The notes below the pieces were generated by a model, which was given only the letters and a program-made list of their open reading frames with translations, was not told the origin of the DNA and ran no database searches. Shown here one piece after another: positions 21,736-40,082 of a DNA stretch of 64,000 nt (position 1 is the first letter of the stretch; the number at the start of each line of letters is the position of its first letter). The position numbers and the translations under genes were made by a program. The stretch lies in the NCBI RefSeq assembly GCF_000003815.2, contig NC_049996.1, forward strand, positions 10,872,838-10,936,837, in the 5' to 3' direction. This stretch comes from Branchiostoma floridae. Its lineage: Eukaryota; Chordata; Leptocardii; Amphioxiformes; Branchiostomatidae.

Positions 21736-24700
21736 CTACCTAAGGTTATTTTTCAGGTAAGACTTTTTCCACTCGTTGTATTGGGAAATACTGCTGCTGA
21801 GCTGCAGGGAATAGTCCAGTGACTTGCCGCTTTCCTCAAATGCCTGTCCTGGTACCAGGTTACGGAACCACCACAAGGCTTGGTCGGCGGTGGTGTTCGT
21901 CGGAGGGACTCCGCGAGGGACTTTGTTGATCTCGTCCGGTACGGAGGCCGTGGAGTGGCAGGAGGTGCAGCAGGACTTGAAGTTGTCCACCGGTCCGTTC
22001 GCCCGGCCCAGCCAACCCAGGTACGGGCGGGAGGCTGGAAGGAACAGCTATGATATTAAAGGACAACACAATATGGAAAAAAATAACCCAGGACTCGAGT
22101 TCCCAGCAGACTCACCCTGCTGTATATCAAGTTCCCCAGAGTAGAACACTCTTCAGACATGCTTCCCACATACAGTCTGAGAATGGTACAACCTCCCTGT
22201 AGAGGTTGCCTTTTTTTTACCATCTCTGGAAACATTGAGTCTAACATTAAGGCTTACGTCTAACTCCAGCTGGCAACAAGCTTTCCCAACAAAGCCTATA
22301 AAAGGTAGCAGAGTCTTCAATAAGATGAAAGCTGCTGCCTTTATTGGAAGAAGGGTCGAAGCAAAAATTACAGTAAACAGAATAGATCCAGTGAATGGCA
22401 TATTTTGTTGTGCGTTTTTACCATATTGCTATCTCACTGCTTCTGCTGTTGGTTTCCCATGTAAAAGAATGCCATTTGTCATGAAACCTTCTAACGTACC
22501 CTTTGTGACCACTAAAAAGGGAGATATAAAGAGGTGTTATTCACCAGATACTATCCCCAATTCCTTGAGCCGCGGGTTGTTCCATGTCTGTACGGGCCTG
22601 GCGCCCTCCTGGTACCGCTGCAGAGTCAGGTCCGGATCGTTCCCCCACTGCAGACACACGGGCACCAGTCTCCGCCAGGGGGCGTCACTGCACCGGGAGC
22701 TGTGGTACACAAATGTGCCGAACACCCAACCTGAAAGGTAATAACAATCAGTCATCAATCAGTCATCATTCTACCTTTTTTTTAAAGTTCGAAGTAACTT
22801 ACATAACTACAAACTATTGCAGGCAATGTGTATGCCAAAAAAAAAAATGTGGCGTTGCAACTTGGTCCTTTCCTCACCTATGTCGGCCCTGTCGTCTCTG
22901 ATGGCGACGTCCATCTGGATCAGTCTCGTCTCCACGGGCGGACCCCTGTCTCCGGGCTCTCGCGGGGTTTTAGCGATCGCCGCTTTCCAGATCGGACTGC
23001 CTTTAAGGTAGGGAACTTCCTCCTCCGTCGCCTGTGTGAATAACGGTTTAAACCCCACCGTGCCCTCTGGGAAGGCGACGCCGTCCTGTGCAGGTTGCCA
23101 GGGCAGGGACCAGACTCGGCCGACGGCGTACGCTCCCGGAGAGTTGTAGAAGGCGACCGCCCAGTTCTGCACCTCTCTCTGCTGCGAGTCCGACAACATC
23201 CCCTGTTTGGACGATTTCTCCATGGTCATGCCGTGGATGGGCTCCCGTCCTGTGGGCTGGGAGGACATCCACGGGACATGGTACCAGTCACGGATCTGGT
23301 TCTGTTCCACCTGTACACAAATAACAACAACAACAACAAACAAGTTTGTACATCCACGGGACATGGTACCAGTCACGGGTCTGGTTCTGTTCCACCTGTA
23401 CAAAAATAACAATAACAACAACAAACAAGTTGGTACTCCCACGGGACATGGTACCAGTCACGGGTCTGGTTCTGTTCCACTTGTACAAAAATAACAATAA
23501 CAACAACAAACAAGTTGGTACTCCCACGGGACATGGTACCAGTCACGGGTCTGGTTCTGTTCCACCTGTACAAAATAACAACAACAACAACAAACAAGTT
23601 GGTACATCCACGGGACATGGTACCAGTCACGGGTCTGGTTCTGTTCCACCTGTACACAAATAACAACAACAAACAAGTTGGTACATCCACGGGACATGGT
23701 ACCAGTCACGGGTCTGGTTCTGTTCCACCTGTACAAAAATAACAACAACAACAAACACGTTGGTACATCCACGGGACATGGCACCAGTCACGGGTCTGGT
23801 TCTGTTCCACCTGTACACAAATAACAACAACAAACAAGTTGGTACATCCACGGGACATGGTACCAGTCACGGGTCTGGTTCTGTTTCACCTGTACAAAAA
23901 TAACAATAACAACAACAAACAAGTTGGTACATCCACGGGACATGGTACCAGTCACGGGTCTGGTTCTGTTTCACCTGTACAAAAATAACAACAACAAACA
24001 CGTTGGTACATCCACGGGACATGGTACCAGTCACAGGTCTGGTTCTGTTCCACCTGTACAAAATAACAACAACAACAAACAAGTTGGTACATCCACGGGA
24101 CATGGTACCAGTCACAGGTCTGGTTCTGTTCCACCTGTACAAAATAACAACAACAACAAACAAGTTGGTACATCCACGGGACATGGTACCAGTCACGGGT
24201 CTGGTTCTGTTTCACCTGTACAAAAATAACAACAACAAACACGTTGGTACATCCACGGGACATGGTACCAGTCACAGGTCTGGTTCTGTTCCACCTGTAC
24301 AAAAATAACAACAACAACAAACACGTTGGTACATCCACGGGACATGGCACCAGTCACGGGTCTGGTTCTGTTCCACCTGTACACAAATAACAACAACAAA
24401 CACGTTGGTACATCCACGGGACATGGTACAAGTCACGGGTCTGGTTCTGTTCCACCTGTACAAAAATAACAACAACAACAATAAACAAGTTGGTACATCC
24501 ACGGGGCATGGTACAAGCCACGGGTCTGGTTCTGTTCCACCTGTACAAAAATAACAAAAAACAAAAAAAACATTTGGTACATCCACGGGACATGGTACCA
24601 GTCACGCGTCTGGTTCTGTTCCACCTGTACAAAAATAACTTCAAACAATTTGGCACAGTTACAAACTATGTTTTAGTAAGTGCCGTATACCTGCCTAACA

Positions 24701-25204
24701 TAACAAGAAACAGCTTCGACAATACCTATTAGTGTTGTCGACGAACCCAGAAAAATGTTCTTGAATTCGAAAATGTGTCTTGTGCGACGCATGAAGTTAC
24801 ATAATATAAATATATATTGCATATGGTATGGCGTGTCTGCGAGACAGGTGTGTGTTGTATTGTAATTGACCTATACTCAAACCTACCCTGAAGTCGCACT
24901 CAACATTCCCCTCCAAACAGTAGTCCCGAACCGTCCGCAGGTATCTCTCCGGCTCCGTCCTGAAGTCTATGTCCAGCCAGGGGAAAGCCTCGTTCCCTGG
25001 GTTAACGCTCCTGGGGAAGTCGAGTCGAGGTTTGAAGACGGGCCCGTCGTAATCAGCAGGTGGAGGGTTGTAAGACGGGCGGGAGAATTCGCACCGGGCA
25101 GCGGCCCGAAACTTGGCGGCCTGCCGTCCCCGGTGCCCCGCCACAACACCGACCACCGCGGCTCCGGTAAAAGCAACTACACGACTAAAACTGCCAGAAA
25201 TCAT
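21736..25204 (-). CDS. CxxCH-motif protein, bacterial-like family, paralogue A
   Basis: Four exons on the minus strand: 25204-24887, 23310-22878, 22730-22545 and 22034-21736, all GT-AG and phase-consistent, 411 aa. The N-terminus (MISGSFSRVVAFTGAAVVGV) is a short basic-hydrophobic leader, either a signal anchor or a mitochondrial presequence. Exon 1 then has a Pro-rich stretch and FPWLDIDFRTEPERY. Exon 2 has RDWYHVPWM, AVAFYNSPGAYAVGRVW, FPEGTVGFK, VPYLKGSP and RLIQMDVAIRDDRAD. Exon 3 has WVFGTFVYHSS and LVPVCLQWGNDPDL. Exon 4 has YLGWLGRANGPVDNFKSCC and the heme-c-type motif C335-T-S-C338-H339. I recall similar unnamed proteins in bacteria; I know no eukaryotic function. Compared with copy B the last exon has a 2-nt deletion just before the stop, which removes about 35 C-terminal residues that B and C share (WW..HPFP-type tail). 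Intron 1 is filled with an exon-derived minisatellite. Confidence 0.82.
23311..24650 (-). repeat. Exon-start minisatellite in intron 1 of gene A (about 16 copies)
   Basis: Tandem units of about 78-86 bp fill most of intron 1 (23311-24886). On the minus strand each unit reads T-rich tract, TTTTTGTACAG, GTGGAACAGAACCAGACC, then CGTGACTGGTACCATG and CCGTGGATG. This copies the real 3' splice site plus the first ~40 nt of exon 2 (VEQNQIRDWYHVPWM). I counted 16 copies besides the authentic exon start, judged by the recurring CATG/GGGACATGG core. Unit length varies through the (TTG)n tract. Because each unit keeps a pyrimidine-rich tract and CAG|G, every copy is a plausible decoy acceptor. Confidence 0.92.
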
Positions 25205-25690
25205 CTTAATGGCAAGAGCGCGATTTCTAACTGCGCAGTTTTAAAGGCAATAAAAGGCTAGCATGCATTGGGAAATCACCTTGCCACATTGCCAAGTTAC
25301 GTCATCGAAACTCACATTTGAAAATTATGTGGTTTTCATACGCATCTTCAATTGATATTCTAGTCTCGATAATGACTTCAATGTGCCTTTCATCAGTTGT
25401 TGGCAATTTGTTTATACATTTTCGAACCTCGCAGGAAATGTTGACAAGCGGAATAGCAACAGTAGTGCTTGGACTGGTCTGATTTCCCCCTATATAAACC
25501 AGGTGAAAGTCTATTGTTTATTCACGACCACCGTTACCATTGTTGACAGGTCAGAGCCAGGGTGAAACTAGTTTCGATGCGTCATATATATGTTTCTAAA
25601 CGTGGAGATGTCCCCTGAGTACTGTTTCTACATTTTAGATGTACGAAAGGATATTTTTGCCTCAAATTTTTCATTAATTTTAAAAGTCCC
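25205..25690. promoter_or_regulatory. 5' flank of gene A
   Basis: The minus-strand sequence directly upstream of the A start (ACTGCGCAGTTAGAAATC.., about 25205-25250) is homologous to the sequence upstream of the B start (26766-26799). The shared upstream part is therefore short. A CRE-like TTACGTCA lies near 25299. The remainder shows no gene. Confidence 0.45.
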
Positions 25691-26300
25691 AAATCTCAAA
25701 GGATCCCAAGTCAATGACTGGGGCGTGATCTAGCAAAACATCATGCAGGAGAATACTATATAATACTATACAAGTAAAATTATACGTCCTAAAATTATAC
25801 AACGCGGGCTACGTGTTAGATAACTATCGGGGCCTGGACCCAGTGCCGAAGTGTCCTCGGCTTGGGGCCGAAATGTCCTGATTGGCAGGGGGCCGAAGTG
25901 TCCATGTGCCGAAGTGTTCGACATTCGTAGGGGGCTAACTAAGCATATAAACTGTACCGACGAGTAGGACTGGTAAAGTAGTATCAGTCCAGCCTTATTT
26001 CTTTATTTTGCTCCAAGGAAGTTTGCCCCAGGCTGCGTACATTGTACCTAGGCGCGATTCTAAAATCTGACACACCACATATCCTCCTTTACAAAAGTAA
26101 TAACAGACCCAGGATGGGTTACTACGATTTTATATCACATTCTAATCGCTTTTGAATTCATTGTTTACATTCACAATGGACCTAGAGCCGATATTGATTG
26201 ACACGTAATTTTTTTTAAAATTTGTCACATTCAAAAATACTATAACGTTCAACTATTAGATAATGGAATTTCTTAGTTTGTAATTTGAGTATGGCAAGTC
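25691..26300 (+). pseudogene. Relic of CHK-kinase-like gene 3' end and 3' flank
   Basis: Diverged copy, same strand, of the last codons and downstream flank of the kinase gene ending at 36574. AACTGGGGCGTGATTTAG becomes GACTGGGGCGTGATCTAG at about 25717-25734. TAAGCATATAAGCTGT..GAGTTGGACT becomes TAAGCATATAAACTGT..GAGTAGGACT near 25940-25975. AGAGCCGATTTTGATTG becomes AGAGCCGATATTGATTG near 26184-26200. No coding capacity remains. Confidence 0.8.
25845..25920. repeat. Fourfold CCGAAGTGTCC motif cluster
   Basis: The motif CCGAAGTGTCC (or CCGAAATGTCC, CCGAAGTGTTC) occurs at about 25845, 25868, 25893 and 25909 in one orientation with irregular spacing. It is absent from the parallel kinase flank at 36.8 kb, so it was inserted or expanded here. 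Confidence 0.7.
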
Positions 26301-26329
26301 TACTAGTAGTTTTTAACTACGGTTGTCGA

Positions 26330-26575
26330 GTGACCTGCAGTAACCAAAGTATAGCACTGGAACTTTCAGAGTAAGTCTTAGTGCTATAGTTATTAGCACC
26401 ATTTTATGCGCATCCACATAATTATATATTGTTATAAGAGTCATAACACCGGTCAAATGTAAAAAGACACCTGTAATTTGGAATCTTACATGAAGTGAAA
26501 AAAATCTGCGTGCATATGCTTGACAAAAGAAAAGGATATCATGGTTTTGTGCCATGTTGATATTTACTGAACATA
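26330..26575 (+). pseudogene. Relic of MAIP1 3' end and 3' untranslated region
   Basis: Begins with GCAGTAACCAAAGTATAGCA, parallel to MAIP1 exon 6 at 20694-20713, then follows the MAIP1 3' untranslated region block by block: GTAAGTCTTAG, TAGTTATTAGCACCAT, ATAACACCGGTC, AATTTGGAATCT and TTTGTGCCATGTTGA. Only the last ~12 codons plus untranslated sequence are present and the stop context is lost (GAACTTTCAGAGTAAG). It is a truncated duplicate, not a gene. Confidence 0.88.
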
Positions 26576-26712
26576 AATAATGCGTGAGTCTGACACTTCT
26601 CAGTATATATTCAAGGAGAAATGCAGAAGAACCACATACATGTAGGGCAGCCTAGGGGCATATTGGACAACTCGTTATGCATGTCCATATTGTTTCTCAC
26701 TTCTTAAAAGTG

Positions 26713-26750
26713 TCACCAAAGGTCACGTTATCAACAAAGGTCACTTTAAA
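26713..26750. promoter_or_regulatory. Two AAAGGTCAC half-sites upstream of gene B
   Basis: AAAGGTCAC occurs at 26718-26726 and again at 26736-26744, in direct orientation with an 18-bp period, 56-82 bp before the B start codon. The sequence fits extended nuclear-receptor half-sites (ERR/SF1/HNF4 type). The pair is not present upstream of gene A. Confidence 0.4.
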
Positions 26751-26799
26751 GGGACGTTAACCATACTGCGCAGGTAAAAATCCTGCTCTTACCGCTAAG

Positions 26800-29673
26800 A
26801 TGATTTCTAGCAGTTTCAGTCGTGTAGTTGCTTTTACCGGAGCGGCGGGAGCGGTGGTCGGTGTGGTGGCGGGGCTCCGGGGACGGCAGGCCGCCGAGTT
26901 TCAGGCCGCTGCCCGGTGTGAATTCTACCGCCCATCTTACAACCCTCCACCTGCTGATTACGACGGGCCCGTCTTCAAACCTCGACTCGACTTCCCCAGG
27001 AGCGCTAACCCAGGGAACGAGGCTTTCCCCTGGCTGGACATAGACTTCAGGACGGAGCCGGAGAGATACCTGCGGAAGGTTCGCGACTACTGTTTGGAAG
27101 GGAATGTCGAGTGCGACTTCCGGGTATGTTTGACGCGAATTACATTATACGAAACACATCTGTCTCGCAGACACGCTATACCATATATTGATATATATAG
27201 ACATTATCTAACTTCACGCCCGTCGCACAGAACTGGCACATTTTCGCATTCAAGAACATTTTTCTGATGCGCATGGTCGAAGCTGTTTCTTGTAAGGTTG
27301 CTATAATGTACTTAATGAATCATAGTTTGTACGTATACATTTGTACCAAGTTGTTTGTTGCTGTTGTTATTTGTGTACAGGTGGAACAGAATCAGACACG
27401 TGACTGGGACCATGCCCCGTGGATGTACCAACTTGTTTGTTGTTATTTTTGCACAGTGGAACAGAACCAGACCCGTGACTGGTACCATGTCCCGTGGATG
27501 TACCAACGTGTTTGTTGTTGTTATTTTTGTACAGGTGGAACAGAACCAGACCCGTGACTGGTGCCATGTCCCGTGGATGTACCAACGTGTTTGTTGTTGT
27601 TATTTTTGTACAGGTGGAACAGAACCAGACCCGTGAATGGTACCATGTACCGTGGATGTACCAACGTGTTTGTTGTTGTTGTTGTTGTTGTTATTTTTGT
27701 ACAGGTGGAACAGAACCAGACCCGTGACTGGTACCATGTCCCGAGGATGTACCAACGTGTTTGTTGTTGTTGTTGTTATTATTTTTGTACAGGTGGAACA
27801 GAACCAGACCCGTGACTGGTACCATGTCCCGTGGATGTACCAACTTGTTTATTGTTGTTGTTGTTGTTATTATTTTTGTACAGGTAGAACAGAACCAGAT
27901 CCGTGACTGGTACCATGTCCCGTGGATGTCCTCCCAGCCCACGGGACGGGAGCCCATCCACGGCATGACCATGGAGAAATCGTCCAAACAGGGGATGTTG
28001 TCGGACTCGCAGCAGAGAGAGGTGCAGAACTGGGCGGTTGCATTCTACAACTCTCCGGGAGCGTACGCCGTGGGCCGGGTCTGGTCCCTTCCCTGGCAAC
28101 CTGCACAGGACGGCGCTGCCTTTCCAGAGGGAACTGTGATGCTTAAGCAGATATTCACACAGGCGACGGAGGAAGAAGTTCCCTACCTTAAAGGCAGTCC
28201 GGTCTGGAGGGCGGCGATCGCTAAAACCCCGCGAGAGCCCGGAGACAGGGGTCCGCCCGTGGAGACCAGACTGATCCAGATGGACGTCGCCATCAGAGAC
28301 GACAGGGCCGGCATAGGTAAGGAAACGGCGAAGTTTCAACGCGACAAACGCACAAGTGCATACACATTGCCCCCAATACAAGATGTACAGGTTGCCAAGA
28401 AAGCAGTAGAACTAGAGAATGATGACACTTAGCATAGATTGTTTATTTTTTTTTAGGCTGGGTGTTCGGGACGTTTGTGTACCACAGCTCCCGGTGCAGT
28501 GACGCCCCCTGGCGGAGACTGGTGCCCGTGTGTCTGCAGTGGGGGAACGATCCGGACCTGACTCTGCAGCGGTACCAGGAGGGCGCCAGGCCCGTACAGA
28601 CATGGAACAACCCGCGGCTCAAGGAATTGGGGATGATACCAGGTGAATAACACCTCTTTACTTCTTCCTACTTACTGGTCACAAAGGGTACGTTAGAAGT
28701 TTTGATGACAAATTGCTGTCATTATTATACACGATAAAAAAACAGTCATCTGAGCACAGAAGCAGTCAGAAAACAATACGTAACCTGGAAAAACTTAGAA
28801 CACAATAAGAAGCACTTCATTATGTTTATTCCAGCTTCATTTATTCTTCTAAAGAATAAGGTCACGATCCTAGACCCGACGGCTGTCTCCATGGTTACTA
28901 GAGGTGATAAATTACATAATGATAATGCAGCCACTGACAGCTAGGAGAGAGCCGGAGTCGTTAGTAAGAATATTAAAAGAAGTAGTCTGTCAATTCATAC
29001 TTGGGATATATAAACCTGCTCTCCAACGAAATCTCTTTAGTGTCACTGACGAAAAGTAGTGGACTCTACCTGAAACGTCTGACCGTTTCCCTAACCATAT
29101 CCAGTTGCTTGAGTAATTGCTATTTGCCTAGACCACGTGGATGTAAAACACTATGTATTTGATTGCTAATGTTAGTCTCTAGTTGGACTTATCTTTACTT
29201 TGTAATTTTTGCAACGACCCCCATACTTTCCATCATGTGTTATCCTTATCATGCCTATTCTTTCCACAGCCTCCCGCCCGTACCTGGGTTGGCTGGGCCG
29301 GGCGAACGGACCGGTGGACAACTTCAAGTCCTGCTGCGCCTCTTGCCACTCCACAGCCTCCGTACCGGACAAGGACAACAAAGTCCCTCGCGGAGTCCCT
29401 CCGACGAACGCCACCGCCGACCAAGCCTTGTGGTGGTTCCGTAACCTGGCGCCCAGACAGGCCTTTGAGGAAAGCGGCAAGTCACTGGACTATTCCCTGC
29501 AGCTCAGCAGCAGTATCAAACATTACAATGGGTGGAAGAAGTCCTACCTGAAAAATACCCTCATAGGTAGACTAAAGGACTGGTGGCTGGAGGCACACCC
29601 ATTTCCAGCAACAGCGTCTTCTGGTGGCCATGGCAAGGATGATAATGCATACATTAGAAAAGATTTGGGATAA
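26800..29673 (+). CDS. CxxCH-motif protein, bacterial-like family, paralogue B
   Basis: Four exons: 26800-27123, 27884-28316, 28457-28642 and 29270-29673, phase-consistent, 448 aa. It is nearly identical to paralogue A in exons 1-3 and lies head-to-head with it (1.6 kb between starts). Exon 1 encodes a hydrophobic leader (VVAFTGAAGAVVGVVAG), a Pro-rich segment and PWLDIDFRTEPERY. Exon 2 encodes the central conserved block (RDWYHVPWM to RDDRAGIG). Exon 3 is WVFGTFVYHSS..WGNDPDL, and exon 4 carries NGPVDNFKSCC and C337-A-S-C340-H341. The full C-terminus (KDWWLEAHPFP..) is retained, unlike A. No conserved Met ligand is obvious downstream of CxxCH, so heme binding is a possibility and not a fact. 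Intron 1 holds the same exon-derived minisatellite as A but shorter. Confidence 0.84.
27340..27883 (+). repeat. Exon-start minisatellite in intron 1 of gene B (about 6 copies)
   Basis: Six tandem copies of a splice-acceptor plus exon-start unit precede the authentic exon 2 start at 27884. GTGGAACAGAACCAGA-type starts lie at about 27380, 27457, 27534, 27613, 27703 and 27792. One copy (about 27457) has lost bases in the acceptor (GCACAGTGG). The units are separated by (TTG)n tracts of varied length. Confidence 0.92.
29040..29155. mobile_element. Partial family 2 hairpin MITE in gene B intron 3
   Basis: Contains GTCACTGACGAAAAGTAGTG, GAAACGTCTGACC and CATATCCAGTTGCTTGAGTA. These are the interior and right arm of the family seen complete at 60432-60600. 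Confidence 0.65.
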
Positions 29674-29729
29674 TACTCCTAAGTCATACGTTTGTTGTCA
29701 TGTTAAGCAAACCAACTTCAGGATAAACA

Positions 29730-30111
29730 TATCACAGACTAGCAAGTATTTAGATCTAGACTATCTAATAGTTGAATTTTTGTTTGCATATGACAAATAT
29801 AGAAAAGCAAGGTGGCAATCAATATCGGCTCTAAGTCAATTTTGGATTTTAACAATGAATTGAAAAGGTGTGATTGAAAGGTAATAGAAAAATAAGAAAG
29901 GTAAACATGGTAAAGGAAATACTGTTTGTGGTGTGTCAGCTGTCTGCTTTCACAATCGCACCTACGGGTACAGTCAGAACAGACTAATGCTATCTGTATC
30001 TGTCTAGGATCGATCTCATGGTACTTAACAGTTTTCACGATTGGTAACAATGTTAGTATCAGGATACATAAGGCGTACGTATAAGCACAGCTGAAGGAAA
30101 GACACAAACAG
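29730..30111 (-). pseudogene. Inverted copy of the kinase 3' flank
   Basis: On the minus strand GACTTAGAGCCGATATTGAT and TTTGTCATATGCAAA line up with the flank downstream of the intact kinase (about 37070-37135) and with the relic at 26184-26260. It lies just 3' of the truncated kinase copy, in the expected order. Confidence 0.75.
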
Positions 30112-30314
30112 CTATATCACGCCCCAGTTCTTGACTTCCTGTACAATCTTCAGTAGTTCAGGTTGTTGACTGGGGAGAAGCCCCGAAGCAGTGTTCACCC
30201 TTTCAAACACCCCGATCGCACAGTCAGCACGGAAGTCTGCTTTCAGCTGATCCAGTGTGTACAGCTGTAGACCTGCAGATTCTGTACGGAAACAAGATAT
30301 GTATTTTTACAATT

Positions 30315-30381
<67 letters not shown>

Positions 30382-30530
30382 AACATAAGTTGTTTGTTTG
30401 CGACACTATGTAAATAACAGTTAACTCTTTGTAATTTTTGTTGTCTTTGTAGTTTTTTTTTAAATCTCTGTACGGTGTCTGCTTTTATGGACCATGGGCC
30501 TGACGCAAACAAATAAATATATATATAACG

Positions 30531-30568
<38 letters not shown>

Positions 30569-31190
30569 GTACACAGTAGAGATTGGAATCGATGAGATTT
30601 TGGAATTCTGATTTCCAGATTCTCCTAGGAGAGATTGGAATTCTAATGTTTCCTAGGGGAGACTGGAAATCGACCAGAATATTCTGTCGGACTTCCAATC
30701 TGTCCTGGGGCAATAAGAGATTCTCTTAGTACACACTGGGATCCACATTATTCCCTCTTCAGCGCAGTCGAGTGTTCTGGGATATACTTCTAGAGGTGAC
30801 ATCAAATGTTTAGTTACAAATAAGCATCTAGGAAACTGATAAAAAAAGTCGACACTCACTCTTTTCTCCCAATGTCTTCTGAAGTTCTTTGTGATAATGT
30901 TCCAAGATGACGTCTCGTTGGTTGTGGAAAATGTCCCAACTTTGGTACATGAAGAGGACAACCAGATCAAAGGTCGGTGTCCGGTAGGAAGGAGTCTGCC
31001 AGTCCACCAGTTTTACGTCTGTGGCTTTATTATCTTCGTACTGAGGAGGGGTGAAAGGCGTTAAATTGCATCATCTGCTAAGATGCCAATGAAAGCACAA
31101 TACCTAGTCTTACCATATAGCGTCACTGGCTAACAACACCGCAGAACATAGAACGAAACAAAGTGTCCAGAATCACACAGTTCACTCCAT
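30112..31190 (-). pseudogene. Truncated CHK-kinase-like copy (exons 2 and 3 only)
   Basis: The minus-strand blocks 31040-30860 (181 nt) and 30281-30112 (170 nt) are the exact length equivalents of exons 2 and 3 of the intact kinase at 34902-36574. Both are open, with the same phases and splice sites, encoding YEDNKATDVKLVDWQ.. and ..LQLYTLDQLKADF..NWGVI with a TAG stop. Homology continues into intron 1 up to about 31190 and then stops at the exon 1 boundary. The 834-nt first exon, which carries the nucleotide-binding lobe and the catalytic HxD motif, is not found nearby on the minus strand. The copy cannot make an active kinase. It sits inverted relative to the intact gene and convergent with CxxCH paralogue B, just as the intact gene is convergent with paralogue C. 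Confidence 0.88.
30314..30379. repeat. (TA)n microsatellite
   Basis: About 32 dinucleotide units within the intron of the truncated kinase copy. A second (AT)n run lies at 30517-30565, interrupted once by ACG. Confidence 0.95.
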
Positions 31191-31229
31191 CCAAAAACAT
31201 TATTGTTATATTCTTTACATCACTAATGA

Positions 31230-31450
31230 GGGTCTGTATGCTCTTTTCCGTAAGGCGTAGGCAGGCCTTTTAATTTAGCGTAATTCGTAGGGAAGCTATT
31301 TTATTTCACGTAATTCGTAGTGAGGATGGAAAATTGACTGTAAAGCGTAGCCAGTGTATTTCACGTAAAGCGTAATCTAGCCTAAAAATATTTCACGTAA
31401 AGCGTAATCTAGCCTAAAAATTACCCGTAAATCGTAGCCTGGTCTCCCAA
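31230..31450. repeat. GCGTAA-rich degenerate tandem repeat, block 1
   Basis: Repeated CGTAAAGCGTA and CGTAATTCGTAG motifs at about 27-40 bp spacing, including an exact 30-bp direct duplication (CACGTAAAGCGTAATCTAGC followed by CTAAAAAT, near 31355-31418). A related block lies at 33940-34065. Confidence 0.75.
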
Positions 31451-31487
31451 AATTCATAAGTCGAAGGGTAGTCTACCAGTGAATTTA

Positions 31488-32340
31488 GCCCCTCAAAACA
31501 TGGGAAATTGCGTTTCAGATGATCAAGATTTCAAAATTTCCCTTGCAAATCCTTTCACATTCGGTCATCGACAAGCCAAAATATGTATCGGAGGCCTCGC
31601 CCTCACCTTTTGCCGTTAATAGGAATGTTATTGAAGGTAGCTAGATTAGTCTGGCAGCAAAATTTGCCTATCAAAATGCAGGAAATATCATCTTAGAGGT
31701 TCAAGATGTCAAAATTTCCATGGTCCTCCCGTTGCGCCGCCTACTTTCTTTGGCGCTCGAAATGCTGAAAATATGTTGGGGATGTGTCAAACTCAAAGAC
31801 CTGTTTTGCTAATACAAATGTCATTGAAGTTAGCTTAGTCTGTTAGCAAATTTTTCCCATCAAAATGCAGGAAATATCATTTTAGAGGGTCAAGATTTCA
31901 AAATTCCCTTGCGCCGCATGGCGCCTTCGGCGCTCGAAATGCTGAAAATATGTTGGGGATGTTACGTGTCAACCTCAAACACCTTTTTTGCTGATAGAAA
32001 TGTCATTAGATTTAGCTTTATATAATATCCATCAAATCAAAATTTTCTTAGAAAAACTCAGGACGCGGCGTTTCAGGGGGTCAGGATTTCAAAATTTTCC
32101 CGGATTTCCCTTGCGACGCCTCACCCCTTCGGCGCTCGACATGGCAAAAATAAGTTGTGTGGCGTCACCCTCAAAAGCTTACGCCAAATCCCTGGGAATC
32201 TTTGATTAGATATGCAATTTAACTTTTGTCTGCCAGCGAAAATTTGCCCTCAAAATGCAGGAAATAGTGTTTCAGAGAGTCAAAATTTAAATCTTCCCAG
32301 CGGAGCATGCCCCCGCCTCTGTCGAGTGTTGTCCAGAATT
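31488..32340. repeat. Tandem repeat of about 185 bp, five diverged copies
   Basis: Blocks TCAAAATGCAGGAAATATCA, TCAAGATTTCAAAATTTCCC, TTGCGCCGC and CGGCGCTCGAAATGCTGAAA recur in order, starting near 31488, 31670, 31857, 32035 and 32248. The spacing of 177-214 bp shows a satellite-like array. Short open frames through it are fortuitous. Confidence 0.82.
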
Positions 32341-32749
32341 TTACGGTCAAAGGTGTTCCAGATGTTGCGGGTCCAATTATTGCAAAGTTACAAGCGAAGA
32401 TATAATGACATCGTGGCTCGACATTTTCTTACAACAGAATTCGTTTGGTTTGATGTAGTCGGTAGAGTTCTATCCCTTCACTGTTGCAGGAGGCGTACGT
32501 ATACTTCCGAAATAATCTATTTGTACACAGTCGTCGTGACAGAGGTGAGTCTGAACATGCAGGTAGTTTATGTGGTGGCGGTCATCTTCGGGCTGATGCT
32601 CAGTGTCAAACTCATCACCATGGGGATGGTGTAATCAGGTATAAACTATTATTTAGGTTTCTATACTACTTCTAGTTAAACCACTATTATTTTTGTGACA
32701 TGGCCAAAGAATTGTTTCTAGAGTATTCGCCTTTTTATTATGTTAAGTA

Positions 32750-32935
32750 GTGTTCTATCCGCTCCCAGCCCTTCTAACAGAGTCTTTTATGCGATGGTCA
32801 GTTCGCAGTATCTTTCTGTAGCACTTCATCTCCAGGACCTGGATTCTGCGGCTGTCACTGGCGTGTAGCCCTGACTCATAGTCATAGGTTACCACGTACA
32901 CACAACACGGGCAGTGCTCCCAGGTTACATCTAGA
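32750..32935 (-). mobile_element. Non-LTR retrotransposon relic (reverse transcriptase C-terminal fragment)
   Basis: The minus-strand peptide YESGLHASDSRRIQVLEMKC followed by YRKILR matches the well-known (E)RRIQAFExKCYRKxLR signature downstream of the RT domain in many animal LINEs. No upstream RT motifs are present and the frame ends a few codons later. It is a short inactive fragment. Confidence 0.65.
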
Positions 32936-33213
32936 GTTCGGAGGGCTGCACGAGCTGTTTCTAGGCGTATACTGACAGCTAAGCTGGCTATTTGTTCTAT
33001 TGTGGGCATGAAGTACTTAGGTCCTGAGAATTGCATTTGTTCTTCTCGTCAGGTGGCTGTTACTTGAATGGGTCTCTTGGTTACAGCCATTATATAAACA
33101 TTCTTCCAAAATTGCCCCTAATTGTCATGCCCCCCGTGACCAAATACTGGTAATTTACTTGCACAAAACACTGAACTGTGCATCGAGTGGTCACTTACAG
33201 CCACAGTTTTCTC

Positions 33214-33257
33214 AATATTATTAAGGACGTTACGTTGATGTAACGTCCTTGATATTA
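33214..33257. repeat. Perfect hairpin AAGGACGTTAC
   Basis: AATATTA..AAGGACGTTAC, a short loop, then GTAACGTCCTT..ATATTA. Stand-alone palindrome in intergenic DNA, possibly a tiny MITE. Confidence 0.6.
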
Positions 33258-33939
33258 TAAATCAAAACATGCCTATCATTTCGGGTTTAACTTTCTGGTG
33301 ACCTGTGTAACGTCACTGTGTGACATGAAAACGTTCAACACGAGTACTATCCAGATACGTTAAGTTGTTGAAAATTTCCATCTAATTACGGACAGACTAC
33401 TATAGTTACATATGCAAAAGGCTATTATCTCCTTCAGTCTGTTCATTCGTGATTCGGTCTGTTCATTCGTGATTCATAATCACCGGTCTGACCAGTTTTT
33501 AGGCATAAAGGCAGCTCCGAGTCCTACTCCCTACATACCAGACCATCTAAATCTACACGGGCTGTTCTCGGCATTGACAGGTAAAACTGCAGTCAACGTT
33601 TATCTTCACTATTTGTTTGCATTGTAGTAGTTTCGTACTCTACAGAACGTTTAAATCGGTAACACCAATTCGGTAACATTTGTAACTTGTTCTTTATGTA
33701 TCCGGATTTTCTTGTCCGGCTTAACTTGGTCACTCCCAATCCCTACATCCGAATGCCTGAGAATGCAGAGAATGAGTCAAAGCCTGTGTAGGCTTTCGTG
33801 TGTTCATAACAACACCTACATGTATCTACTCGTTGATTTGTATTTGAGTCAATAACAGAAACAGCAAGACAAAACATTCAGGCCGACTCTAGTATGTGGT
33901 TCATCTTTACGCTTGACAGGAAAATTGGGCAACATCTTT

Positions 33940-34065
33940 AAATAACGTAAACCGTTGCCAGCCTTTCTGAATTTAGCGTAAAACGTTGCCGGCCTTCGTG
34001 AATCTAACGTGAAGCGTTGTCGACCGTCCCGAATTTAGCGTAAAGCGTTGTCAGGACCCTCCATG
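33940..34065. repeat. GCGTAAAGCGTTG degenerate tandem repeat, block 2
   Basis: Four to five copies, period about 34-37 bp, of GAATTTAGCGTAAAGCGTTG-like units followed by CCGGCC/TCGACC-type spacers. Related to the block at 31230-31450. Confidence 0.75.
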
Positions 34066-34550
34066 CAGACCCTCTAGTAAGAACCATGCCCTGCACTGCT
34101 GGCACTTTGTCCACAGACATTCTACCAGGTGATGAGGTGAGGTGTGAACCACAATCCCATGTCAACCAGATAGACATCGTCTCCGCTCTGCAACCTTAAG
34201 GAGGTCCTTAACTTATGAGGTAACTCATATATTTCTTTACCAGGTGTTTGACAGTTATATAGTGGATAATCACTTGGTTTTCTAAGTGTGCTTTTTTTCT
34301 GTGCATATCATGATTGAGAATAAGATCAGATACTGACGAGGCATCACAGATCCAGATGCCAGAACACCTCAAGTTGATTCGTACCGTTGAAGATACACAG
34401 TCACACATACACCGTCAAAATCAAAGATGGCAGCCACTGGTAATTCAGGGAGCGTTTCAAACTATTGGAGGTCAAACGAAATTTTCCAAGGGGTTTAATA
34501 GCCTTTGTCCGCCAAAGTGAATGGCAGCATAACATTACACACAAGATTTC

Positions 34551-34765
34551 AGCTTCGCGTAGCGTAACGGTAGGGTGTTTGGCTCAAAGCCCAGAGTCCT
34601 GGGTTAGAGTCCCCTGACATGGTCCGACACTGTGCCCTTGCTTGGGAAAGGCACTTTACAGGAATTCCCTCGCTTCACTCTGGTGCACATAAGTACCTAG
34701 CTTCGGAGGTCCCATGTTTGAGGAGTTTGTAAATCCATAAAATAAAGTTAGCGCTTGATAATAAT
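34551..34765 (+). mobile_element. tRNA-derived SINE-like element
   Basis: It starts with a tRNA-like A box (TAGCGTAACGGTAGGGTG) and, at the right spacing, a B box (GGGTTAGAGTCCC). A tRNA-unrelated body follows, containing GGAGGTCCCATGTTTGAGGA. The same body motif (GGAGGTCCTGTGTTTGAGGA) recurs near 63212-63231. It lies about 140 bp upstream of the kinase start codon. Confidence 0.75.
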
Positions 34766-34901
34766 ATTATTACGCTAAGGAGACTGGGGATTGACCAGAA
34801 TTTTGCTAATATATTTATACAATGTATGTAGAACATCGGCAATTTAAAACACAGTCCTAATGCCCTTCATTTTCCACCAGAAAGCTCTGATCCCTTAAAC
34901 C

Positions 34902-36574
34902 ATGTCAGCGTCCGACACGATCGCCGTCCCACGGTCTGTGGAAGACATCACCCAACCCTGGGTCCAACAGGTCTTCAACAAAGCCGACCCTGACGTCAGT
35001 ATCACCAATGTCAACATCGAGGGAAACATAGGTGAAGGTCAGGGCTATATGAACAGCCTTGTCGCCTTCGTAGCCACTGGGAACAAGGACAGTAAAGAAG
35101 AAAGGCACCGTCTTGTGGCCAAACTGACAAGTTTCCAAATAATGGAGGAAGTAGATTACATGACCGTGGAGGATTATCTTCGTATGGACACGGCAGAGTC
35201 CAAGTTCTACTCCGTGGCAGTGCCGGACTTACTGTCCATGTTACCCGCATCTAAGGGGTCCGAAGCCATGGCCGAAGGAGAAGTCGTGCCTGTCCCAAAG
35301 TGCTACTTCGCCACGAGTGACCAGACCTCCAAGATGTCAGTACGTGTGATGGACAATCTTAAGACTCAAGGCTTCTCGATCAAACCGTTCCCGGCGCAAA
35401 CGTTGAACCTCCAGGAGATGAAGCTCGCAGTAGGAGCTCTGGCCAGGATCCACGGTCTTTCCCATCGACTAGAGCTCCAGTCTGGAGTCCCCCTACCTGA
35501 CAGGTACGACTGGATGATGGACCTTCACGGTACCAAACAACAGTGGTACGGATCCAGAGCGGCCTACCTAGAGGGGGTCAAGGCCTTCGCATCAGCCTTT
35601 CCTGACGCCACAGATCTGTTGGCTTGTCTGGAGAAGCTGAACACTGTCCCGACGGTGAATGAGGCGGTGAAGAATCCAGAAAAGGTGAAGGTGCTGAGCC
35701 ATACGGACTGCTGGAACAACAACATTATGTTCAAGGTACGGAGTCAACTCTGTGATTCCGGACACTTTGTTGTCATTCTATGTACTGCGGTGTTGTTGAA
35801 CATTAATGCTATATGATGAGACTATGTTTTGTGCGTTCAATTAGCAATTTAAGTCCTTTTACTTTGTCTGCCCCTCCTCAGTACGAAGATAATAAAGCCA
35901 CAGACGTAAAACTGGTGGACTGGCAGACTCCTTCCTACCGGACACCGACCTTTGACCTGGTTGTCCTCTTCATGTACCAAAGTTGGGACATTTTCCACAA
36001 CCAGCGGGACGCCATCTTGGAACATTACCACCAAGAACTACAGAAGACCTTGGGAGAAAAGAGTGAGTGTCGACTTTTTTTATAAGTTTCTTAGATGCTA
36101 GTTTGTAAACTAAACATTTGACTAAGTCACCTGAAGATCTCAGGACACCCAACTGCGCTAAAGCGGGAAGAATGTGGGTTCCAATCTCGCCTAGGAGGAT
36201 CCCTTAATGCCTCAGGACAGATTGGAATTCCAACAGAATTCTGGTCGATTCCCAGTCTCTCCAGGGAGACATTAAAATTCTAATCTCTTTTTGGAGAATC
36301 TGCAAATCTGCCATACCAGACCTCGAAAGTCTCATTATTTCTAATCTCTACTTTGACATATATTATACAATTATAAAAATACATATAATGTTCTATCCGT
36401 ACAGAATCCATCGGTCTACAGCTGTACACGTTGGATCAGCTGAAAGCAGACTTCCGTGCTGACTGTGCGATCGGCGTGTTTGAACGGGTGTTATTTTGTT
36501 CGTGGCTTCTCCCCAGTCAACAGCCGGATCTGCTGAAGATTGTACAGGAAGTCAAGAACTGGGGCGTGATTTAG
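34902..36574 (+). CDS. CHK / ecdysteroid-kinase-like (EcKinase-type) phosphotransferase
   Basis: Three exons: 34902-35735, 35882-36062 and 36405-36574, phase-consistent, 394 aa, the usual size for this family. Exon 1 holds the N-lobe, with a Gly-containing EGNIGEGQGYMN at about residues 45-56 and the lysine-bearing HRLVAKLTSF. It also holds the Brenner-type catalytic motif VLSHTDCWNNNIMFK (H267, D269, N274). Exon 2 holds the metal-binding equivalent of DFG as LVDWQ (D291), then TPTFDLVVLFMYQSWD. Members phosphorylate small molecules such as ecdysteroids or choline-like compounds; the substrate here cannot be told. The gene is convergent with CxxCH paralogue C. Its exons 2-3 and 3' flank also exist as an inverted truncated copy at 30112-31190. 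A third copy of the flank is at 25691-26300. Confidence 0.88.
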
Positions 36575-37892
36575 CTGTTTATTTCCTTCAGCTATGTTAG
36601 GATATTATAACGTCACATTTCCAAACCTTCGCCAAACCGGACTGTTTGAGGAAACGGGAAAATATACACAAATAATGCCCACGACTGTTCTCTTTACGTC
36701 GTGTAGTTTGGTGTCTTTTATATCACACCTGGCCGGGTCCCAGTTTGGAAATGTGACGTAGACTGTACTATGCTCAATGCAGTCGGACAGGGCTGTGTAA
36801 ACTGTGCCAGTGAGTTGTACAGGGCTAACATTGAAACTAAGCATATAAGCTGTTCCGAAGAGTTGGACTTATTAAAGTAGCATGGACTTGGGAACGTAGC
36901 ATGAGATGGATACAGGTGTATATAGCTTTAGTCTATTGTTGTACCTGTACGTATACCTATGTGCGGTTGTAACAACTTACGGACAAACCACAAATAGAAA
37001 AGATAAAAGCACACTCAGTATTTTTCTTTTACATTTATTCACATTCTTTTGAATCCATTCGTTACATTAAGGATTGACTAAGAGCCGATTTTGATTGCCA
37101 CGTTAAAGAGATTTTATTACATTTGTCATATGCAAAAATAAACTTTAAACTATTTTATGATCTAGACCTAACTAGTCTGTAAGACTTGTTTTTAATCAAA
37201 AATTATTTCATACTCAGTACTTGGCAGTGAGTTGATTTGCAGCATATACACATATCTATATAATAGATGTAACGTTATATACTTTAAAACCTGTCTCAAA
37301 AGTTCATAATTATAATATCATATAGGACGCATATATTTCACTCTCTTCACAACGAAAAAGTAATTTCTCACCACTAAATTTGCCACTTCATCATATCCTA
37401 TAGTATGTAATGGTAGTTCAACACAAATCTTTTAACGACTGCTGATTACGATTCGTACATTTGTGCGTATATACATATCAAAATAAGAAAACCCCTTTTT
37501 TCATACATTCTTTTCTAACATTTTCTCTTGTAACAACAATTCAATATATACAACAGCATTTCAGTACCCTTAACGCTTATATAGACTACTTAATCTTTGC
37601 TTCCTTCCTAGACCAGTAGCACCACCAATATTTGAGGTCCGTTTCCCATCATTGCATTCTTGTTAATTGCAAATTAGTTAATATATGGCAGTAACATTTT
37701 CAGCAGCATTTTGCACGCAAAATTGTAGAGATTCTCTTTTAAATAAATCCTACAAGTAGAAGAATGCACATATTTTCTTGTTCGTTTTCTCTATCAACGG
37801 CGAAATATGCTCACCCGACACAACATAACCCAATTCTAATTCTAAATTTAACCCATTGTCTAATTTTTGTCTTTGCCGGTCGACTAATTGCA
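36575..37892. other. Convergent intergenic region, kinase and paralogue C
   Basis: AT-rich, no gene seen. It contains the kinase 3' flank that is duplicated elsewhere (TAAGCATATAAGCTGT near 36838-36854, AGAGCCGATTTTGATTG near 37081-37097). Confidence 0.6.
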
Positions 37893-40082
37893 TTAGTTAT
37901 CGTTTCCGCTAGGAGGCGTGGGCGCATTGGGAAACGGTCGCACTTGCAGCAGTCCTTGCCACCACACCACCGCCCTGTTTAGAAGTGTTTTTGGTCTGTG
38001 TTCATTCGCCCACTCGTTGTACTGCTTAATACTACTCTTCAGTTGCTGGGAGTAGTCCATCGACTTTCGTCCTTCCTCGAAGGGCTCCCCTGCTTTCAGG
38101 TTACGGAACCACCGCATCAACTCGCCGTCGCTCTCGGGACGACTGGGGGGTACCGGCCGAGGGACGGAGTTGTCCTTGTCCGGTACGGAGGCCGTGGAGT
38201 GACAGGAGGCACAGCAGGACTTGAAGTTGTCCACCGGTCCGTTCGCCCGGCCCAGCCAGCCCAGGTACGGGCGGGAAGCTATAGAAATGAGAATAGATGG
38301 GTGGTACGTTAAGGCCATTGCTCGGTAACATTACAGCAATGATAAGATGTCATCTACTATCTAAGACTAGAATAGAATATACTTTCCTTGCTTCTGTCAA
38401 ATAAAAAAGAACTGTCTTCTACGTACTGAAACTATCTGAAGTTCAAAATATCTGAGAAAAATGAAATAGCTTACCTGGTAGTATCCCTAGGTCCCTGAGC
38501 CGCGGGTTGTTCCATGTCTGTACGGGCCTGGCGCCCTCCTGGTACCGCTGCTGAGTCAGGTCCGGATCGTTCCCCCACTGCAGACACACGGGCACCAGTC
38601 TCCGCCAGGGGGCGACACTGCACTGTGAGATGTGGTACACAAACGTCCCAAACACCCAGCCTATTTCAAGAAGAGGAAGAAAACGACACAAAAATTCCAG
38701 GCATCAGTGATTTTGTTCTGTTGGAAGCAAATTTTGTTTTACGATAAATACAAGACATGTTTACCAGAGCTTTGAAACAACAAAATATCAGCAATATCAT
38801 TTTATACTTAAAAAAACCCACTACATACCAATATCTGCGCGTTCGTCCCTGACGGCGACGTCCATCTGAATGAGTCTCATGTTAACAAGTGGGCCCCTGT
38901 CACCTGGTTCCTCAGGCTCTTTGGCAATGGCCGCCTTCCAGACGGGACTTTCCGTCAAGTACGGGATGTCTTCAGCACTCCCTTCTGTAAAGAGAAGCTT
39001 GAAGCCGACCGTTCCTTCAGGAAAGACGACACCGTCTACTTTAGGGCGCGACGGTTCTTCCCAGACGTTGCCGATCACGAAGGCACCGGGCGCGTTGTAG
39101 AACGCTACGGCCCAGGTCTGTAGTCTCCGCCGCTGGGTGTCCGCCAACATACCCGGGGCAGCTGGCCGCTCCATGGTCATGCCGTGGATAGGCTCGCGCC
39201 CCGTGGGGAGGAAGGACATCCACGGGATGTGGTACCAGTCACGGGTTTGGTTCTCCGCTACTCTGAAGTCACACTCGGTGTTCCCTTCCAAACAGTAATC
39301 CCGAACGGTAAGCAGATATCTGAAATCAAACATGACGAATTTTATTGATTTTAGAATGAAACTCAATATTGATTGGGTCTGAAACTAGGATTATGGGTGT
39401 TCAGGTAACTGAAGTTTAAGTACCGTAAGTAGACAAGTGCCAGTTGACCAAATATATTTCAAGAAAATGATGATGGTGATTTGGTTTCAGTCACTTTCAA
39501 ACATTACTACAGTATTGTAGAATATAAGGTACACATAGCTGAAATGCACTGTGGTAATACAACACAGTGAACATACGGCAAGCATATTGCCCTTCGGCGT
39601 TACACAACCACTTTCTTGTCTTAAGTAGTTGGAATAATCTGCTCAGACGTGTCCTATAGCTACATGCTACAGAGTATAATACTAAATACTACTGTATAAT
39701 GATATGGTAAGGGGTTGCACATATAGTTACATAAAGTTTCAGGGCTATTCAGCACAAATGCTTTCAAAATTTGTACACTACATTATGTTCGGACATGAAA
39801 ATGACGACAGAAGTTTACATACCTTTCTGGTTCTGTTTTGAAGTCCATGTCCAGCCAGGGAAAAGTCTCGTCCCTAGGCTGTGTGGAGGGAAAGTCCAGT
39901 CGTGGCTGGAACAGCGGTCCCCTGTACCCCGGCGGTGCGGGGTTGTAGGACGGCCGGCTGAATTCTAGCCGCGCTACCTGCTGCCAGTCAGGAGTTGGTC
40001 TGCGTTGTTGGAAGAGTAGAGCTCCTGCAACGGTGGTGGTGCCCACAAGTACGGAATACTTGCAGAATCTGTAGAGCGACAT
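37893..40082 (-). CDS. CxxCH-motif protein, bacterial-like family, paralogue C
   Basis: Four exons on the minus strand: 40082-39823, 39319-38829, 38660-38475 and 38278-37893, 440 aa. It is clearly diverged from A and B but keeps all blocks: a hydrophobic leader (MSLYRFCKYSVLVGTTTVAG), FSRPSYNPAPPGYRGPLFQP, FPWLDMDFKTEPERY, RDWYHIPWM, FYNAPGAFVIGNVW, FPEGTVGFKLLFTEG, RLIQMDVAVRDERADIG, WVFGTFVYHIS, CLQWGNDPDL, LGWLGRANGPVDNFKSCC and C335-A-S-C338-H339. Its first intron lies about 20 residues upstream of the A/B one (phase 2 inside the Arg of PERY). The DFRVAENQTRDW junction, split by the minisatellite intron in A and B, is uninterrupted here. Introns 2 and 3 are at identical positions in all three. 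The start is 884 bp from the divergent protein-kinase-like gene. Confidence 0.83.

Follow-up and report, generated by a model that had tools for sequence, protein, structure and literature searches.

How does a chordate chromosome come to harbor a family of spliced genes whose products resemble bacterial proteins with a heme-c-type CxxCH motif, and what might these proteins do? The question is raised by three genes, here designated A, B and C, which are located in a stretch of 64,000 nucleotides of the amphioxus Branchiostoma floridae (C18:10872838-10936837; contig NC_049996.1); this whole stretch is referred to as the window. The explanation that we regard as probable is that the genes are animal members of the cytochrome P460 superfamily, originated from a proteobacterium before the split of the animal subfamilies, and were subsequently duplicated and furnished with introns; their proteins may have a role in nitrogen-oxide chemistry.

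The gene models are compiled in Table 1. A, B and C comprise four exons each, all nine introns are bounded by GT..AG and the reading frames of all three splice models are open. An earlier note on this DNA, made from the letters alone, had delimited the family exactly, since 21736 is the last base of the stop codon of A and 40082 the first base of the ATG of C. Its conserved motifs PWLD.DF, FPEGTVGFK (FPEGTVMLK in B), RLIQMDVA, WVFGTFVYH and LQWGNDPDL were recovered, whereas the last one is one residue longer than proposed and resembles NGPVDNFKSCC(A/T)SCH. A and B represent an inverted pair with proteins that are 93% identical. The ratio of nonsynonymous to synonymous substitutions (dN/dS) is 0.23 for A-B, 0.22 for A-C and 0.18 for C-D1, D1 being a paralogue on another chromosome, and the corresponding dS values are 0.15, 1.05 and 2.0, the last of which is close to saturation. 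A, B and C are under purifying selection; the family is old and the A/B pair is recent. The low dN/dS together with full-length bacterial homologues at strong tblastn E-values excludes chance as an explanation.

Table 1. Location of the gene family and of other features in the window (aa, amino acids; TRF, Tandem Repeats Finder).
Feature	Position	Strand	Description
Gene A	21736..25204	-	411 aa; exons 25204-24887, 23310-22878, 22730-22545, 22034-21736; splice model, open frame
Gene B	26800..29673	+	448 aa; exons 26800-27123, 27884-28316, 28457-28642, 29270-29673; splice model
Gene C	37893..40082	-	440 aa; exons 40082-39823, 39319-38829, 38660-38475, 38278-37893; without mirage; splice model
C N-terminus	40003..40082	-	basic and free of acidic residues; hydrophobic stretch of ~17 aa with basic residues behind it; composition only
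C exon 2	38829..39319	-	K194 (in FPEGTVGFK), predicted as the heme-cross-linking Lys, and predicted distal Gln238/Asp240 (in LIQMD)
C exon 4	37893..38278	-	residues 335-339 form the heme-c motif CASCH; also the C-terminal tail
Mirage minisatellite, intron 1 of A	23311..24639	-	16 decoys before real exon 2; TRF array 23265-24639, 16.7 copies
Mirage minisatellite, intron 1 of B	27375..27883	+	6 decoys before real exon 2; TRF array 27437-27929
Ecdysteroid-kinase-like (EcKL) gene, between B and C	34902-35816	+	PF02958, E 1.9e-19
NHL-repeat beta-propeller protein	51509-52255	-	PF01436, E 1.2e-13
66-bp tandem repeat	54084-54387	both strands open	4.6 copies, 92% match

The closest relatives found are bacterial and carry the c-heme CxxCH, in agreement with the first impression that the proteins resemble bacterial CxxCH proteins. 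A tblastn search of a plasmid collection returned 28 matching records, the best of which belongs to Variovorax sp. RA8 (43% identity, E 4e-80), and a scan of prokaryote genomes provided 106 confirmed relatives. The best 80 of these 106 were used; they are 31-45% identical over their full length, with a best tblastn E-value of 1e-92 as computed on candidate stretches only, and they are distributed over nine phyla (Pseudomonadota, Bacteroidota, Acidobacteriota, Planctomycetota, Actinomycetota, Myxococcota, Armatimonadota, Vulcanimicrobiota and Melainabacteria). At E <=1e-20, a relative is present in 7 of the 369 genomes sampled from the class to which G001 belongs, counting the seed; in the class of G002 the seed was the sole positive among 385 genomes, and in the phylum of G003 two of 244 were positive, the seed being one. 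All of these numbers are lower bounds because only the best few candidates were scored per genome. The distribution suggests that the gene is rare and patchy in bacteria. One scan of IMG/VR revealed a single relative (L128) on a viral contig, which is 46% identical to C; its neighboring open reading frames look bacterial by eye, and a viral origin was rejected. For locus L048, whose first high-scoring segment pair crosses a stop codon upstream of the conserved part, the row was taken from after the stop.

The family, which had been described as unnamed, very probably belongs to a recognizable superfamily, namely, cytochrome P460 (Pfam PF16694). This model matches 54 of the 63 scanned bacterial relatives (E up to 0.1; best 3.9e-7) and is the only family match in the Pfam scan for A (19.4 bits, E 0.0015), B (22.8 bits, E 1.3e-4) and the paralogues D1 (23.7 bits) and E (17.2 bits). 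An hhalign comparison of a core-only profile (C residues 150-262) with the part of P460 upstream of CxxCH scored 33.2, the 20 column shuffles reaching at most 16.1, and placed FPEGTVGFK on PWPDGTILAK and LIQMDVAVRD..GWVFG on FVHAEFMIKD..GGWGFA. The same Lys-on-Lys register was obtained with a Lys-type P460 profile and with an animal-only profile against a 14-row profile (41 columns). It is preferred here because it fits the PF16694 stretches of B, L072 and P0001, the only ones among the stretches looked at that include the Lys. The P460 profile was built from 14 loci, those among 20 that satisfied a motif filter, and its reversed version as a control gave 1.2%. With a P460 hidden Markov model, 14 of 91 rows reach an E-value of 0.01, compared with none of the 91 reversed rows.

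Several observations weigh against this assignment. All animal PF16694 scores are below the curated cut-off of 27 bits and C has no Pfam match; the stretch matched in A starts at residue 199, past K194, and those of D1 and E cover the later part only. None of the E-values of A (0.28), B (0.058) and C (0.55) with the P460 hidden Markov model reaches 0.01. Five hhalign runs, one with the mixed, untrimmed profile and four with trimmed profiles, align the CxxCH end and shift the Lys region; the animal-only profile attained probabilities of 37% and 32%, and against 11 rows it was aligned at the CxxCH end alone. No solved structure was retrieved by sequence or profile search with C or a 63-row profile (alignment A2 comprises 63 of the 81 loci). 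The proteins A-C are furthermore more than twice the size of P460, carrying two inserts and some 150 additional residues at the N-terminus, and Arg50 and Arg121 on the distal side of McP460 lack a clear counterpart; the strand of the distal capping Arg/Phe (Arg50 in McP460) has no confident alignment in the core-only comparison. An NCBIfam scan of C gave nothing meaningful. Taken together, A, B and C are very probably members of a large branch that diverged within the cytochrome P460 superfamily, as judged from profiles and motifs.

The residues of the heme site are in accordance with this placement. In McP460, Lys78 forms the cross-link, Gln100 and Asp102 are distal, and Gly73, like Lys78 itself, is one of the few positions that never vary (PMC6427953; PMC11928373, Table 2); the distal carboxylate of the P460s is Asp102 or Glu96. 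The alignment to chain 6HIU has a Lys at position 78, a Gln at position 100 and a carboxylate at 102, and the corresponding residues of C are G189, K194, Q238 and D240. K194, Q238 and W252 are each conserved in 84 of 84 non-animal and all seven animal rows, D240 in 83 and G189 in 78 of the 84 non-animal rows and likewise in all seven animal ones. CxxCH is present in 84/84 and 6/7 rows, respectively; all of A, B and C possess it, the exception being paralogue F. In the preferred register, K194, Q238 and D240 are predicted to be the counterparts of the P460 heme-site residues, as regards the residues and not the bond; a rival register is available. According to Table 2 of PMC11928373, the three cytochromes c'-beta have Phe or Met at the position of the Lys and Ala or Gly at that of the carboxylate. 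The retention of Lys and Asp would accordingly place the animal proteins on the P460 side of the P460/c'-beta divide.

The window contains only a part of the family. A search of the genome (513-Mb assembly of 431 contigs) with C detected 35 exon matches, a lower bound, on C18, C4, C5, C8 and C14, and genome-wide the family exceeds the three members counted earlier. Five additional genes or gene remnants exist beyond A, B and C, along with two partial copies (C4, C5, C8, C14). D1, D2 and D3 are clustered on C4 near 29.04-29.11 Mb, E is located on C8, and F on C4 at 6.46 to 6.48 Mb; D3 has a stop in exon 1, and no exon 3 was detected for it. The splice model of D1 was checked, and D2, E and F were assembled from pieces. 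The paralogues on other chromosomes are about 57% identical, and together with the shared introns they bear out the proposal that the genes are long resident. In the last exon of F (L130:659-894, C4 near 6.48 Mb), LE is joined directly to SSCAAS, so that the RANG.VDN..C..CH stretch is lost and the frame intact, and F may be either a naturally heme-less derivative or a pseudogene at an early stage. The two partial copies are a truncated copy of F on C5 near 27.648 Mb (L037), 98.7% identical across 2.7 kb, and pieces of the 3' part of E on C14 near 20.456 Mb (L038), which are 83-96% identical and each longer than 60 bp. Both are candidates for segmental copies or assembly duplicates.

The origin of the family was investigated with trees that cover, among eukaryotes, the animal rows of this genome, together with the bacterial relatives. 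In the 91-row tree the seven animal rows form one clade (100) within a set that also contains 16 Pseudomonadota (96). A careful tree of 65 of the 91 rows, which omits F and one of the plasmid rows as well as long branches and near-duplicates and is rooted on distant plasmid proteins of Paracoccus and Bradyrhizobium, unites six animal rows in one clade (100/100) that is nested with 13 Pseudomonadota (96/89), namely, 11 Alphaproteobacteria, a member of the Granulosicoccaceae and Paracidovorax. A single clade of all 57 ingroup bacteria without the animals is rejected by the approximately unbiased (AU) test (p-AU 0.0022), which shares the long-branch pull of the model and presumes a group named beforehand. 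Given the root used, the animals are nested inside Proteobacteria, the outcome that the earlier note had named as the mark of a transfer. On the other side, the branch joining the 13 nearest bacteria is weak (90/42) and the root consists of two long-branched plasmid rows. The position of the animal sequences as one clade inside Proteobacteria makes an old transfer the best reading, and a bacterial transfer to the animal line, as opposed to an old eukaryotic gene, appears rather probable from these trees. Of the two origins initially envisaged, an old transfer or a widely lost ancestral gene, the nesting is as the former predicts; the choice between them is only partly decided.

If the gene were instead ancestral in eukaryotes, inherited for example from the mitochondrial ancestor and kept by few lineages, the alphaproteobacterial neighbors would reflect descent. 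The 11 Alphaproteobacteria among the 13 grouped bacteria would fit such a history, as would the long residence documented by introns and paralogues on several chromosomes. It is at odds with the accessory rarity of the gene in bacteria (a single positive, the seed, among 385 genomes in the class of G002, as a lower bound), with its relatives in 28 plasmid records, and with the inclusion of the Granulosicoccaceae member and Paracidovorax in the grouped set, and we consider it unlikely. Bacterial contamination of the assembly would account for the bacterial nature of the best outside matches; it is rejected in view of the GT..AG spliced genes, the amphioxus-type mirages, the chromosome-scale scaffolds and the ~57%-identical paralogues on other chromosomes.

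Introns 2 and 3 occupy identical sites in A, B and C, as previously noticed (phase 1, amino acids 250-252 and 312-314), and also in D1. The site of intron 1 differs; it is found after amino acid 86 in C (phase 2) and after 106/108 in A/B (phase 0), and the first intron of D1 follows amino acid 158 (phase 0; about 152-153 in C numbering). The checked sites in the family hence amount to at least five: 250 and 312 (shared), 86 (C), 106 with a mirage (A/B) and ~153 (D1). In A and B, intron 1 ends in a mirage minisatellite. Each decoy consists of a splice acceptor and the first ~46 nucleotides of exon 2, one decoy in A having ACAA instead of ACAG, and 17 such copies in A and seven in B are present if the real one is included. 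The tandem repeat extends across the intron-exon boundary in both genes, which is the defining trait of a mirage. Mirage minisatellites are known from amphioxus, including those of Adh3 and BflGb6 (PMC3087553). Since the mirage is located where C and D1 have a continuous exon, intron 1 of A/B is a candidate for a freshly arisen intron. A number of the units share the frame of exon 2, so that in-frame alternative insertions are conceivable. If the transfer is true, all of the at least five intron sites were gained in the animal line, and the family would offer a direct way to test the mirage model for the birth of introns.

The proposed history and function can be outlined as follows. The gene would have been acquired from a proteobacterium before the animal subfamilies diverged, with duplication and intron gain thereafter. 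In the five animal proteins examined, the first acidic residue is found at position 27-40 and basic residues come after a hydrophobic stretch; no second membrane-spanning stretch was scored in these five. We infer a mitochondrial, membrane-anchored c-heme protein, whose hydrophobic, acidic-free N-terminal segment would be anchored in the inner membrane and whose body would reside in the intermembrane space. There, the heme would be attached to CxxCH by holocytochrome c synthase (HCCS), with His339 as the putative axial ligand, Lys194 possibly cross-linked to the porphyrin, and Asp240 and Gln238 on the distal face as a presumed proton relay; the protein may oxidize or bind hydroxylamine or nitric oxide (NO). 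In animals, c-type heme is attached in the mitochondrial intermembrane space only, by HCCS, and the HCCS family (PF01265) has four matches on C15 of the amphioxus genome, where it scores over its cut-off. The enzyme is selective and needs a cytochrome-c-type N-terminal helix near CxxCH, and this preference speaks against an easy maturation of the animal proteins. To our knowledge, P460-type nitrogen-oxide chemistry is known from bacteria only. A chemistry of hydroxylamine and NO in the animal proteins is put forward as a tentative proposal, which we find possible but not the better bet.

Two other roles have to be considered. The proteins could be carriers or sensors that bind NO or carbon monoxide in the manner of cytochrome c'-beta and have kept the fold and CxxCH in the absence of oxidizing activity. 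The cytochromes c'-beta indeed share the fold and were derived from P460s (PMC11928373), and no distal Arg is apparent in the animal sequences, yet all seven animal rows have the Lys and Asp that are replaced in the c'-beta proteins of Table 2 of that review, which renders this role unlikely. It is likewise doubtful, and slightly more so, that CxxCH bears no covalent heme in the animal and serves metal binding or disulfides in a protein that is secreted or located in the endoplasmic reticulum. The restriction of animal c-heme attachment to mitochondria and the selectivity of HCCS would favor this option, as would paralogue F with its lost motif and open frame; the retention of the motif in six of seven animal rows and the acidic-free, basic N-terminus speak against it. 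With respect to the preferred nitrogen-oxide role, the far-reaching version, in which a chordate has working bacterial-derived P460-type enzymes that oxidize hydroxylamine or quench NO in mitochondria, plus an unknown animal maturation of Lys-cross-linked c-heme, is a long shot. If the P460 reading holds, the presence of a P460-type heme site in an animal would turn animal nitrogen-oxide chemistry into a testable question, and would raise that of how a non-standard c-type cytochrome matures without the bacterial Ccm machinery.

In the openly licensed literature, no paper on P460 with amphioxus or Branchiostoma was found, a mention elsewhere being possible; searches for P460 with eukaryotes or horizontal gene transfer retrieved no animal-P460 paper by title, and 'cytochrome P460 domain' led to plant-microbiome work only. 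Neither 'eukaryot' nor 'animal' occurs in the main text of a review from 2025 that treats cytochromes P460 and c'-beta (PMC11928373).

The neighborhoods of the 81 bacterial loci exhibit no single partner gene that would point to a function. A gene for a ~540-amino-acid protein follows in 13 of them (L072, L073, L077, L079, L081, L082, L083, L087, L091, L102, L113, L126 and L127), all of which belong to the bacterial set grouped with the animals. This protein has no Pfam match in the two representatives scanned; its start resembles BTAD/SARP regulators by eye. Two further groups of neighbors, a linked one of 17 and one of seven members, have a molybdopterin-dehydrogenase-like and a phosphoesterase-like representative, respectively (one scanned each). 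The P460-like gene of an Obscuribacterales bin (L050:909-3888) is preceded by genes for a LodA-like protein (PF17990/PF18417) and a LodB-like flavoprotein, which presumably represent a quinone-cofactor amino-acid oxidase pair, and a multicopper oxidase adjoins the P460-like gene at L049. Apart from the family, the window harbors the features listed at the bottom of Table 1; one minus-strand frame of the 66-bp repeat consists of repeats of [22 protein letters not shown].

The comparison with known systems shows both likeness and divergence. With P460 (PF16694; McP460 6HIU, NeP460 2JE3) the animal proteins share PDGxxxxK, Q-x-D/E, the W of the GWxF strand and the C-terminal CxxCH with its axial His in conserved order, but A-C comprise 411-448 instead of about 160 amino acids, with an additional N-terminal region of ~150 amino acids (PWLD.DF...GRE..HGLT.ER), about 22 extra residues between Lys and Asp and about 57 before CxxCH. 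Cytochrome c'-beta has the superfamily and CxxCH in common with them and differs in the Phe/Met and Ala/Gly that take the place of the Lys and Asp kept in all animal rows (PMC11928373, Table 2). WP_162590200.1 of Variovorax RA8, which is annotated as 'cytochrome P460 family protein', displays the same full-length architecture, as do hypothetical proteins from Rhizobium and Agrobacterium (33-43% identity), whereas their genes are intronless and their N-termini resemble bacterial signal peptides by eye. The repeats of A and B are, like the mirage of BflGb6 described in PMC3087553, tandem copies of an intron 3' end and the 5' part of an exon; they differ from those of Adh3 and BflGb6 in their units of 75-91 bp, their 16 and 6 decoys, and their location in an intron that is absent from C and D1.

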